Virus record (IMG/VR): IMGVR_UViG_3300028610_001146
Coordinates: 1 to 43,665 of that record
Direction: 5' to 3' (one strand)
Origin: a virus
DNA length: 43,665 bases
The position numbers were made by a program, and so were the translations under genes. Under the pieces are notes generated by a model. The model did no database searches. It was not told the origin of the DNA and saw only the letters and a program-made list of their open reading frames with translations. How positions within the stretch are numbered: position 1 is the first letter of the stretch; every line of letters starts with the position of its first letter. Shown in pieces: positions 145-3,961 of the stretch.

Positions 145-2394
145 GGCATATTAAAAAATCGACTTAAAGAACAATGGTCAATTGATAAATGGGGAAAAGC
201 TATCCAGAATTGGGCATGGCGTAATGCTGCCGGAGATCTTCTATGGGCTGTCATTCGTCACGAGACCGAAAATGGAAAAGACGATATACCATATTTTTTC
301 GCCACTGATAATACATGGCACCAAGGATACCCAGTAAAAACCAATCGTCCTCTTTATGGACTGGATAAATTCAAAGGACAAAAATATGGTATTATTGTTG
401 AGGGCCAGAAATGCGCCGAAATTAAGGTTAAAAAATTTATATCTCTCACTTGGCCCGGTGGTACAAATGCTGTAAAAAAAACTGACTGGAAGGCAATTAT
501 ATCCCTAGAATTGGATAAAATCGTTATATGGCCGGATAATGATGATCCCGGGAAAAAAGCAGCTCTGACAATCAAAGAGCAATTATCATTATGGGTAGAT
601 ATCCCTATAGATATCCTTGATATTCAGGATAAACCGAAAAAATGGGATATCGCAGACGCAAAAGACGATAAAATTAATATTGAGAAATTCATAAAAGATT
701 GTCCGAGAATAGAAAATTTGCAAGAAATTGTCCCGGATAAAACTCACGATAAAAACGGATTGCCGCCACCGCCTTTTAAAATTTTAGGTTTCACTGATAA
801 ATTTCATTGGTTTCTGCCGGATTCCGCGCCGGTCCCGTTAAGCTTTTCGCGGGGATCTATATCCACAGGAGCGATGCTGGAATTGGCCCGCTTTTCGTGG
901 TGGGGAATAAATTTCCCAGCAAAAACCAGTTTTGACCGTGAACCGGCCCTCGACTGGCTAATACAGGAATCACATACAAAAGGGTATTATGATAGCGATA
1001 TTATACGGGGTGCCGGTGTCTGGCGTGACAATGGCCGAATAGTTGTAAATGAGGGTAAGCGAATTATAACCCATGATGGTCAAAAATATGATTTTAAAAA
1101 TTTTGACTCAAAATATATTTATATATTATCCGGTAAAAGTTTTGGCGATTTAACGGGCGATATTTCAACTTCGGAGGAAGGATATGATTTAATAAATTTA
1201 TTTTTTGCACAAAAATTCATGACGCAATTAGAGGCTGTCTGTATAATGGGTTTTGCTTTAATCGCGCCATTTTCGTCTTTTTTAAAATGGCGTCCTCATA
1301 TTTGGTTGACCGGTCGTAAGGAAATTGGTAAATCATATCTTCTGGACGATATAATTACCCCTCTTGTAGGTCCCATTGCTCATATCGGCTCTGGAAAAGA
1401 CACCGAGGCAGGAATACGCCGATCTGTCCGGCAAGATGGCTGTCCGGTTATCCTGGACGAAACAGAGCCCAAAAGCCAGGAAGCTAGAAAAAAACTTGAC
1501 GGGCAATTAGAGCTTGCCAGAAATGCCAGCTCTGACGGGGCCGGAGAGATTACAATAGCCGCCGCAAATGGCGGAGTGGATAAATTTAAAATGCGTCAAA
1601 GCTTTTTATTTACCTCCATTGTACCGCATATGGAAGGGGCGGCGATTGCAAGCCGTTTTATAATATGCAGATTAAATGGCAATATTGATTTTAATACAAA
1701 AAAAATAGCTACTTTGAAAATTCTTGACAAGGGAATAATGGAAGATCCAGGACGTTTCCGACGTAGAATTTTTAAATTATTGCCAGTTATCGAAAAAAAT
1801 ATACCACTAATTAAAGACATTATTTTTAGGGCGCTCGGCTCTCAGCGTATGGCCGATAATTTAGCCCCTCTTTTTGCCGCTGTTTATAATTGTGTTAAGG
1901 ATGGTCTAATAACAGAGGATCAGAAATTCCAAGATTTTATTATGCAATGGATTAATGAATATGAGGAAAATTCTGAATCTGACGAAGATATGGTAATCCG
2001 CGAATTATTGGATTCGAATATTCGCCTGGAGGGTGGCAATAAATCTCTTGGAGAATTAATTTATTTAGGCGCAAAATTTAAAGGGGAAGAATCTTATCAC
2101 AAAGAATTAGGCCGTTACGGTATAAAATATATCGAGAAAAAACAGGAATTAGCTATACAATATGAACATAAAATGTTGCGGGATCTATTAAAAGAATCGC
2201 CGTATGTATCCCGATATGGGGAAATTTTAAAACGCCATAAATACGCCGAAAAAAAATTAAGATCCGTCAGGATAGGCGAAAAAAATTCAAAAGCTGTGAT
2301 AATTGATTATACGAAACTTGCAAAAGAATATTTTGATATTGAAGATGATCAGATTAAAATGGACTTGACTACGCCGGATGAGGTACCGTTTTGA
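1..2394 (+). CDS. Phage primase-helicase (C-terminal 797 of 873 residues; continues from 43294)
   Basis: This is the main part of a gene that starts at TTG 43294 and crosses the assembly join, giving 873 residues in total. After an N-terminal CHC2-like region there is a TOPRIM-like primase segment: KYGIIVEGQK near residue 204, with the acidic glutamate, and WPDNDDPGKK near residue 253 with the DxD-type aspartates. A DUF927/VirE-like ATPase follows, with the P-loop-like WLTGRKEIGKS near residue 510 and ILDETEP as a likely Walker B. The role is priming and unwinding DNA at the phage fork. The stop codon overlaps the TTG start of the methyltransferase gene. The apparent start at base 52 is internal and should be ignored. 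The fold assignment is by motif only. Confidence 0.85.
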   Translation: MSKLEAAEKIITQSGGILPDNSEKRDEKVKNCDKFTPECPIKDENRAIGILKNRLKEQWSIDKWGKAIQNWAWRNAAGDLLWAVIRHETENGKDDIPYFFATDNTWHQGYPVKTNRPLYGLDKFKGQKYGIIVEGQKCAEIKVKKFISLTWPGGTNAVKKTDWKAIISLELDKIVIWPDNDDPGKKAALTIKEQLSLWVDIPIDILDIQDKPKKWDIADAKDDKINIEKFIKDCPRIENLQEIVPDKTHDKNGLPPPPFKILGFTDKFHWFLPDSAPVPLSFSRGSISTGAMLELARFSWWGINFPAKTSFDREPALDWLIQESHTKGYYDSDIIRGAGVWRDNGRIVVNEGKRIITHDGQKYDFKNFDSKYIYILSGKSFGDLTGDISTSEEGYDLINLFFAQKFMTQLEAVCIMGFALIAPFSSFLKWRPHIWLTGRKEIGKSYLLDDIITPLVGPIAHIGSGKDTEAGIRRSVRQDGCPVILDETEPKSQEARKKLDGQLELARNASSDGAGEITIAAANGGVDKFKMRQSFLFTSIVPHMEGAAIASRFIICRLNGNIDFNTKKIATLKILDKGIMEDPGRFRRRIFKLLPVIEKNIPLIKDIIFRALGSQRMADNLAPLFAAVYNCVKDGLITEDQKFQDFIMQWINEYEENSESDEDMVIRELLDSNIRLEGGNKSLGELIYLGAKFKGEESYHKELGRYGIKYIEKKQELAIQYEHKMLRDLLKESPYVSRYGEILKRHKYAEKKLRSVRIGEKNSKAVIIDYTKLAKEYFDIEDDQIKMDLTTPDEVPF

Positions 2395-2577
2395 ATTATC
2401 TTGATTTATTTTCTGGTATAGGGGGGTTTGCGCTTGGAGCCCATTGGGCAGGAATGAAATTTGAAAATCATTATTTTAGCGAGATTGAGAAATATCCAAT
2501 AGAATTATATCAGGAGCGTTTCCCGGATAGTATTCAGTTAGGGGACATAACAAAAATAAACTGTGATATGTTAATAC

Positions 2578-2606
2578 TTGACACTGTGTCAAGACAATAT
2601 TATAAT
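2578..2606 (+). promoter_or_regulatory. Consensus sigma70 promoter of the HNH cassette, with a dyad
   Basis: TTGACA (2578-2583), a 17-bp spacer and TATAAT (2601-2606) lie inside the methyltransferase gene, 28 bp before the HNH start codon. The -35 box sits in the perfect dyad TTGACAC-T-GTGTCAA (2578-2592), which could be an operator. This promoter marks the left part of the inserted cassette. Confidence 0.8.
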
Positions 2607-2633
2607 AAGCCATACTTAATCCAGGGGGATGAT

Positions 2634-3110
2634 ATGGCAGGAAAATTAAAAAAACTTCGTGAGTGTGATGTTGAAGAGGCTATTAAAATGTATCAAGGGG
2701 GTTATTCACTTGGTGATTTAGGTAAAAGATATAGCGTATCAAGACAATCAATGTGGGATTTATTAAGGAGAAGAATTGATTTAAGATCTAAACTAAGATT
2801 TGGAGAAGACAATAATTTTTATCGCGGAGGTATTTTTTCAGATAAAAAAGTTCACCATATAACAGAAAAAGCAATTTTAAAAGGAAAATTAACACCTGAG
2901 CCGTGTGAGGAATGCGGAGAATATAACTTCATGAAAGATGGCCGGGTATCTGTTCAGGCTCATCATAATGATTATAATAAGCCTTTAACAATTAAGTGGC
3001 TTTGTCAAAAATGTCACCACAAATGGCATAAGAATAATAAACCTATAAAAAGAAAGGAGGATACGGCGGAAGTTGCTGGTGATTGGATTATCACTGGCGG
3101 CTTCCCGTAA
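2634..3110 (+). CDS. HNH homing endonuclease inserted in the methyltransferase gene
   Basis: ATG 2634 is preceded by a strong CCAGGGGG ribosome binding site and by its own promoter. The N-terminal third resembles a small helix-turn-helix (GGYSLGDLGKRYSVSRQS), as in other DNA-targeting HNH enzymes. The nuclease part has CEECGEY, QAHHNDYNKP and CQKCHHKWH, i.e. paired zinc-binding CxxC motifs around an HH...N...H catalytic core. The reading frame runs on into methyltransferase codons (GDWIITGGFP) before TAA, so its native end was probably near 3060. It is too compact (about 500 bp) to contain a group I intron core, and no intein splice residues were seen. It therefore looks like a free-standing homing cassette. 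Confidence 0.85.
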   Translation: MAGKLKKLRECDVEEAIKMYQGGYSLGDLGKRYSVSRQSMWDLLRRRIDLRSKLRFGEDNNFYRGGIFSDKKVHHITEKAILKGKLTPEPCEECGEYNFMKDGRVSVQAHHNDYNKPLTIKWLCQKCHHKWHKNNKPIKRKEDTAEVAGDWIITGGFP

Positions 3111-3150
3111 CTGTGTCAAGATATATCAATAGCAGGAAAAGGAGTAGGAA

Positions 3151-3552
3151 TTGAAGGAGAAAGGTCTGGTCTTTGGTTTGCCTATGCGCGGATTATTAGC
3201 GAGTTACGACCGAAATTCGCAATTATGGAAAACGTTGGAGCTCTCACTATTCGGGGGCTTGATGCCGTACTCGGGAGCCTTGCCGAAATCGGGTATGATG
3301 CGGAATGGCAAGATATACGGGCAGAGGACATGGGTGCACCGCACAGGAGAGAAAGGATCTGGATTATGGCATACCCCCAGAGCATTTCATGCGAGGGGTC
3401 ATTTTCGAACAAACAAAAAAAGCAAAAGATATCGACAAATGGATTTGACAGAAATACCGAACCTAAACATAGCATGGATCGAATGGATGATGGGATACCC
3501 CATAGAGTGGACCGCCTTAAAGGACTCGGAAATGCAATTGTCCCTCAAATAG
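3151..3552 (+). CDS. Overprinted ORF in the methyltransferase 3' half, phage 'SGMMRNG...EWMMGYPIEWT' type
   Basis: This ORF is one frame off the methyltransferase C-terminal half. It has a near-ideal ribosome binding site, AAGGAG at 3139-3144, six bases before TTG 3151. Its 133 residues contain SYDRNSQLWKT, LPKSGMMRNGKIY, HRTGEKGSGLWHTP and LNIAWIEWMMGYPIEWTAL. From memory these match a common phage protein type, often annotated as a methyltransferase C-terminus, with motifs such as SGMMRNG, GSGLWPTP and WVEWLMGFP.GWT. The same bases read MGAPHRRERIWI and MDDGIPHRVDRLKGLGN in the methyltransferase frame. Function is unknown. Translation is inferred, not proven. Confidence 0.5.
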   Translation: MKEKGLVFGLPMRGLLASYDRNSQLWKTLELSLFGGLMPYSGALPKSGMMRNGKIYGQRTWVHRTGEKGSGLWHTPRAFHARGHFRTNKKSKRYRQMDLTEIPNLNIAWIEWMMGYPIEWTALKDSEMQLSLK

Positions 3553-3586
3553 CTGAATTATTATTTAGGCAAATAAAGGATTTAAT

Positions 3587-3961
3587 TTGAAAAATAAAGT
3601 CTATTTATCCAAAGAATTAAATCAACATTTCCGATTTACAAAAGACGGAATAATTTTTGAAGACAAAGTGTCCTACACAAACGAAGAAATTGAACTCATA
3701 AAAAAAAGCGATCTCAATATCGAAACAATCCATACAGCAAAATTGAAATTTGACGCTACAATTTTATCAGAAGACGAACTCGACAAACTGACAATTGAGT
3801 ATAACAAAGGACCATCAAATTTTCAACAGGCAGTCGACCAGGCAAGTAAATTAATAAAAGAAGGCATGAAAGGTAATGAAGCCGTTCATAGAGCATCCAA
3901 TAATTATAATGTTTCATCGTCTGCAATCGGCCAGGAATTGGGGAAACGGAGGAAAAAATGA
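3587..3961 (+). CDS. Hypothetical protein with a possible C-terminal HTH
   Basis: TTG 3587 overlaps the TGA of the methyltransferase frame (TTTGA), suggesting translational coupling. The 124 residues are soluble and charged. The last 40 (GNEAVHRASNNYNVSSSAIGQ) have the spacing of a small helix-turn-helix, then a basic tail. No family was recognised. The stop overlaps the next ATG. Confidence 0.65.
   Translation: MKNKVYLSKELNQHFRFTKDGIIFEDKVSYTNEEIELIKKSDLNIETIHTAKLKFDATILSEDELDKLTIEYNKGPSNFQQAVDQASKLIKEGMKGNEAVHRASNNYNVSSSAIGQELGKRRKK

Follow-up and report, generated by a model that had tools for sequence, protein, structure and literature searches.

The methyltransferase locus of a viral DNA of 43,665 nucleotides (the window: IMG/VR record IMGVR_UViG_3300028610_001146, positions 1 to 43,665) belongs to a family that probably encodes a two-subunit C5-cytosine methyltransferase, dual-coded and similar in kind to M.EcoHK31I, with subunit functions that we infer from motifs and relatives. 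From its sequence beta, the short +1 frame nested in the long methyltransferase frame alpha, appears to be the recognition subunit that alpha itself lacks. Hundreds of loci, most of them in phages and prophages, share the conserved alpha-beta pairing, and selection acts on the two frames alike. The features of the locus in the window are collected in Table 1.

Table 1. Features of the alpha-beta locus, with positions given on the window
Feature	Position	Strand	Evidence
Alpha 5' part: C5-methyltransferase motifs I-III, TTG start, LDLFSGIGGF ... GDITKI	2391..2561	+	PF00145 and phrog_363 in P0003; PF00145 match 2394-2567; DNA alignment with intact relatives
Insertion with HNH endonuclease frame (ATG 2634), reading in the alpha frame to stop 3108-3110	~2562..3033 (boundaries approximate)	+	phrog_2340 E 2.7e-18; phrog_8446 E 6.3e-8; gap in 4/4 relatives
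Perfect sigma-70 consensus promoter-like site TTGACA-17-TATAAT, upstream of the HNH frame	2578..2606	+	Consensus match only
TAACTG, missing from relatives: in-frame stop immediately before the catalytic Cys codon (GGFP*LCQDIS)	3108..3113	+	DNA alignment
Alpha 3' part: motifs IV (CQDIS), VI (MENVGAL), VIII (GAPHRRERIWI), X (GLGNAIVP)	3114..3590	+	PF00145, phrog_363
Shine-Dalgarno-like AAGGAG, within codons of the alpha AGKGVG motif	3139..3144	+	Sequence; 6 bases before TTG 3151
Beta: nested ORF, +1 to alpha, TTG start, 133 aa, stop TAG 3550-3552	3151..3552	+	phrog_1008 E 6e-19; shuffles; substitution pattern
Best-conserved dual-coded stretch in the overlap: beta GMMRNGKIY over alpha GYDAEWQDI	3292..3318	+	Protein and DNA alignments
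Beta GLWHTP (family consensus GLWPTP), directly 3' of alpha motif VIII	3361..3378	+	Alignment
Beta motif IX (predicted) EWMMGYPIEWT over alpha DDGIPHRVDRL, shortly before alpha motif X	3481..3513	+	hhalign of beta profile against canonical methyltransferases, E 3.2e-4

Two reading frames and the selection on them

An earlier note on this DNA had described two family-level proteins read in different frames of 3111-3590, and its motifs and coordinates proved correct. In frame A (alpha, 3114-3590) MENVGAL, GAPHRRERIWI (3333-3365) and RLKGLGNAIVP read as given there, and frame B (beta) contains SYDRNSQLWKT, LPKSGMMRNGKIY, GSGLWHTP and EWMMGYPIEWT. The profile search of both translations, which the same note had proposed, assigned frame A to PF00145 (E 2.5e-25) and phrog_363 (E 2.8e-46) and frame B to phrog_1008, the PHROG_1008 profile being significant for the beta of the window and for 20/20 beta proteins tested (set A1). 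No model for beta was found in Pfam or NCBIfam, and a sequence search of the PDB returned nothing convincing; its best hit, a glycolipid transfer protein at E 0.44, was set aside as chance. The AAGGAG reported before a TTG was located at the spacing described, and the beta frame is limited upstream by an in-frame TAG at 3145-3147, so that in the window beta cannot start much further upstream.

As a conserved alpha obliges its +1 translation to look somewhat similar among relatives, we took as null model synonymous codon shuffles within alpha, in which the alpha protein and its codon usage are preserved. The beta frame of the window scored 146.8 bits against a shuffle mean of 61.9 and maximum of 98.8 (500 shuffles, 0/500 reaching the real score), and its longest +1 open stretch, at 134 codons, was longer than any seen in 2000 shuffles (maximum 124). 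The real beta score exceeded all 100 shuffles of each locus in 71/71 non-redundant loci picked by the alpha motif alone (median 127.8 bits against a null mean of 40.4), and across these loci the +1 frame held fewer stops than expected (4.9 against 8.5), which was not so for the +2 frame (16.3 against 15.1). Shuffle-tested loci and the window were left out of the training set of the beta model, with the exception of L115 and L119, which stem from the same contigs as the training locus L013 and its near-copy L014.

The substitution pattern was read from the geometry of the overlap, where alpha third codon positions are beta second positions and alpha first positions are silent sites of beta. Conserved 4-fold alpha sites, compared within pairs of 80-97% alpha identity, differed at 33.7% in the single-coded N-terminal part and at 17.3% inside the overlap, a halving of silent alpha changes that bears out the synonymous-site suppression for which the earlier note had suggested looking, while alpha first-position differences rose from 8.0% to 17.9%. 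When pairs were sorted into three identity bins, the third-position share of alpha changes dropped inside the overlap in 14/14, 52/55 and 89/92 of them; pairs are independent within a bin, and one locus may recur across bins. Beta was whole in 77/80 alpha-selected loci, two of the three exceptions running off the contig end. The widespread stop codons and absence of selection on the second frame that would have undone the earlier proposal were thus not what we found, as beta is intact in nearly all of these loci and under purifying selection.

One could suppose that the beta frame is untranslated and that its likeness among relatives follows from methyltransferase conservation and codon usage. 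The shuffles lend this some ground, since their mean lies well above zero (close to 40 bits over the loci and 62 for the window), so that frame A accounts for part of the resemblance but not for the excess. Against it, the real scores beat every shuffle in the 71 loci and the window, stops are depleted in +1 alone, and the substitution data contradict it, with silent alpha sites constrained in the overlap only and alpha first positions freer there, so that we hold this reading to be extremely improbable. Because beta is the +1 frame of alpha in all relatives (199/199 loci of the first set, of which beta similarity gave 32, the alpha motif 80 and the beta motif 80, the rest being 6 phage records and the window), shuffles never reproduce beta and silent alpha changes are halved, selection acts on both frames.

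Motif IX and the probable recognition part of the enzyme

When the beta profile was aligned by hhalign with canonical methyltransferases, it matched solely at motif IX (E 3.2e-4, probability 39%), over a short alignment of 23 columns in which beta LnPxWVEWLMGFPiGWTDL faces canonical RRLTPxECxRLQGFPDxWT. The identity of this short segment is supported by the complementarity of beta with an in-frame motif IX, by natural rearrangements within the family and by the structure of alpha. Among loci chosen by alpha N-terminal motifs alone, motif IX was missing from the own frame of 60/62 beta-bearing alphas (52/62 have motif X and lack IX), and it was in frame in 83/87 alphas without beta (79 by pattern and 4 by eye, the other 4 being truncated or frameshifted); the Fisher value is 4e-30 on pattern counts, and the canonical motif IX count takes in the TPREWARLQGFP form. 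As for rearrangements, three Streptomyces loci (L228, L229 and L233) have an alpha that stops after motif VIII and an overlapping beta frame that encodes recognition region, IX and X consecutively, and in L211, L277 and L311 the EW(L/M)MG segment of motif IX stands in the alpha frame, immediately ahead of X.

In the AlphaFold model of alpha from the intact relative L008 the catalytic domain is complete, with residues 1-161 at pLDDT ~95 and a confident motif-X end; no target-recognition domain is seen, and residues 162-222, where the small domain would be expected, fall mostly below 63. M.HhaI was the best solved structural match of alpha, over 164 columns only, and the alpha profile matched M.HhaI across motifs I-VIII with X as a weak sub-threshold second hit. 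The alpha 3' part of the window (3114-3590) is likewise without motif IX and without a recognisable target-recognition domain in its own frame. The AlphaFold model of beta was poor (pLDDT 65, pTM 0.31) and a fold search with this low-confidence model gave no structural match; so weak a model might be expected for a subunit without its partner and says little.

Alpha resembles M.HhaI and the other single-chain C5-methyltransferases of PF00145 in its catalytic domain and motifs, but the single chain of M.HhaI also includes the target-recognition domain and motif IX, which the beta-bearing alphas do not. The small gene of M.EcoHK31I, a two-polypeptide C5-methyltransferase (YGGCCR), is said to have been described by Lee, Kam and Shaw in 1995 as lying within the large gene in another frame, and beta is similarly nested at +1 in alpha (199/199 loci) with selection on both frames. 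The likeness extends to the division of motifs, as M.EcoHK31I is made of two chains, one with I-VIII and X and the other with IX (PMC3404938). Alpha has I-VIII and X and lacks IX, all these elements being present in the interrupted gene of the window, and motif IX is predicted on the separate small polypeptide beta. Unlike these pairs, which occur mostly in phages and prophages, EcoHK31I is a restriction-modification system, and its large subunit is predicted to hold a target-recognition domain that is not visible in alpha. M.AquI (CYCGRG) is also split, with catalytic motifs I-VIII and the recognition region, IX and X on two polypeptides, a division that the three Streptomyces loci reproduce with overlapping frames; most other members, including the window, differ from it in having motif X on alpha and beta nested, whereas M.AquI has both IX and X on the small subunit.

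Beta could also be an independent phage protein with a role of its own, for example in anti-restriction or regulation, overprinted on the methyltransferase by chance. That it forms a family of its own (phrog_1008) under purifying selection accords with this, but in the loci fetched beta never occurs outside a methyltransferase gene, it has motif IX, its presence tracks the absence of that motif from alpha, and in some members the same segment lies in the methyltransferase frame. We regard such independence as unlikely. The earlier view of beta as a recognised phage protein type in its own right likewise found no support, as beta is found only inside methyltransferase genes, appears when motif IX is missing from their own frame, and has methyltransferase motif IX as its sole distant match.

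In the two-subunit enzyme that we favour, alpha would be the catalytic, SAM-binding half, bearing motifs I-VIII and X with a disordered linker separating VIII from X, and beta would be made by internal initiation, in the window at TTG 3151 behind AAGGAG, as a separate small protein with the target-recognition region and motif IX. The two would associate, beta supplying the recognition domain absent from alpha and completing the small domain, and the pair would methylate phage DNA, probably as protection against host restriction. Beta would accordingly be translated, bind alpha and be needed for activity. Beta starts with a Shine-Dalgarno are enriched in relatives (53 against 29.5 expected), though not present in every locus, and starts at +37 from the Cys codon number 82 against 53. 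In 86/232 loci the beta frame stays open upstream as far as roughly the alpha start, and a different start may therefore be used there.

Programmed ribosomal frameshifting would instead join the alpha N-terminus and the beta C-terminus into one full-length methyltransferase chain, to which beta would add the missing recognition region, as the Streptomyces loci with beta continuing beyond the end of alpha would allow. However, the conserved part of beta already overlaps motifs VI-VIII, and these would be lost if the shift came early enough to take in that part, and the beta frame of the window has a stop only 4 bases before TTG 3151; for these reasons internal initiation is favoured. Motif X, moreover, lies in the alpha frame and not the beta frame in most members, and we judge frameshifting highly unlikely.

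The interrupted alpha copy of the window

The earlier note missed that frame A is not an intact gene in the window, where it is broken by the HNH insertion and by TAACTG. A 12-bp repeat, ACTGTGTCAAGA, lies at 2583-2594 and at 3110-3121 in the motif IV region, and TAACTG belongs to its second copy. The palindrome CTTGACAC-T-GTGTCAAG (2577-2593, 8-bp arms) covers the -35 box of the promoter-like site; ten exact TTGACA-N17-TATAAT sites occur in the window (e.g. 2578, 8728, 10772, 31563, 36027, 43236) against 0.02 expected from shuffles, an exceptionally high number of perfect consensus promoter-like sites. A group I or other catalogued intron was considered as cause of the interruption and rejected, as 2350-3300 gave no Rfam match at E up to 1.

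The C5-methyltransferase motif set (I, IV PCQ, VI ENV, VIII and X) stands in one uninterrupted frame in the intact relatives; in the window all of these motifs are present but the gene is interrupted, and no second PF00145 gene was found elsewhere in the record. Given the insertion and the stop, the methyltransferase of the window phage is probably now inactive, and its beta frame, which is intact, may be an undecayed remnant beside the broken alpha. Our claims on function therefore rest on the relatives. In another locus, the prophage of E. coli PCP07014 (L362), a stop falls at about the same place in both frames and the methyltransferase is marked as a pseudogene in the record.

Occurrence, origin and annotation

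Stand-alone beta genes were not found by a beta-motif search or among phages and plasmids, every locus fetched having alpha beneath. A search by alpha N-terminal motifs only, which lie outside the overlap, recovered beta in viral contigs and in bacterial and archaeal records, and the beta-bearing phyla number at least seven (Spirochaetota, Thermodesulfobacteriota, Actinomycetota, Pseudomonadota, Bacillota, Bacteroidota and Methanobacteriota). On the catalytic-domain tree the presence of beta takes 2 changes against 30.4 with shuffled labels, and a tree with the beta-bearing rows constrained to one clade had the higher likelihood (p-AU 0.82), so that one origin of beta is not rejected.

The placement of motifs IX and X in one frame or the other among relatives suggests repeated frame swaps. 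Most likely the recognition part started out in the methyltransferase frame, the arrangement of ordinary methyltransferases. A shift of frame downstream of motif VIII together with a new upstream start would have given the Streptomyces form, and a second frame change, between IX and X, would have returned X to alpha. If this was the route, the C-terminal half of beta descends from the original methyltransferase, and overprinting concerns the N-terminal half of beta and the alpha linker, not the whole of beta. The 'ancient overprint' of the earlier note stands accordingly in part: the overlap appears old, given its spread over seven phyla and a single origin that is not rejected, and some of beta may be ancestral methyltransferase sequence. 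We consider it moderately probable that a single ancient event moved the recognition half into the +1 frame of the catalytic half, and that phages and prophages across many phyla retained the dual-coded enzyme with later swaps that put IX and X in beta or returned X, or IX, to alpha.

Beta length varies in L200, L022, L209 and L211 by repeated (L/W)PTPxAxD segments in the middle of the protein, where alpha has ADxN/ADSK-type repeats, and this repeat region may be a site of target-specificity change. In L355 a single open frame runs from alpha into beta sequence and back without alpha motifs VI-VIII, which makes it either a frameshift chimera or the product of a sequencing error.

PHROG_1008 owes its existence to gene callers that in some cases picked the beta frame over the alpha frame; its label, 'DNA methyltransferase', hides that the family is the +1 frame and not the catalytic frame (phrog_363). 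In L035, L037, L039 and L365, from phages and plasmids, the CDS on record, named as a hypothetical protein or a DNA-cytosine methyltransferase, corresponds to beta, and the alpha frame beneath it has no annotation; the CDSs called hypothetical proteins in L037, L039 and L365 are this beta frame, alpha being intact. In the Paenibacillus larvae phages Leyra and Redbud (L363 and L364) both frames are annotated, at 798-1850 and 982-1686, the inner one in Redbud as 'g50 internal gene'. A paper on these phages lists two DNA-cytosine methyltransferase entries, and a term search of it found no discussion of the overlap. A limited search of the literature likewise found no report of the alpha-beta arrangement as a phage-wide family; the two-polypeptide split is known from M.EcoHK31I, and the phage-wide dual-coded family appears, on this limited evidence, to be new.

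The other frame of a methyltransferase thus explains PHROG_1008. The alpha-beta pairing is in most cases only half annotated; many phage methyltransferases are annotated with one subunit only, and a recoded clone of the annotated gene could as a result be inactive. If the single-event reading is true, the annotation of most genomes would be without one of the two subunits, and every change of specificity in beta must pass through the codons of the catalytic subunit. Outside small viruses, genes seldom overlap over long stretches on the same strand, and the cases known are mostly young or doubtful. The overlap of alpha and beta, about 130 codons or longer and present in hundreds of loci, likely joins two halves of one enzyme, which would offer a testable reason for its persistence.
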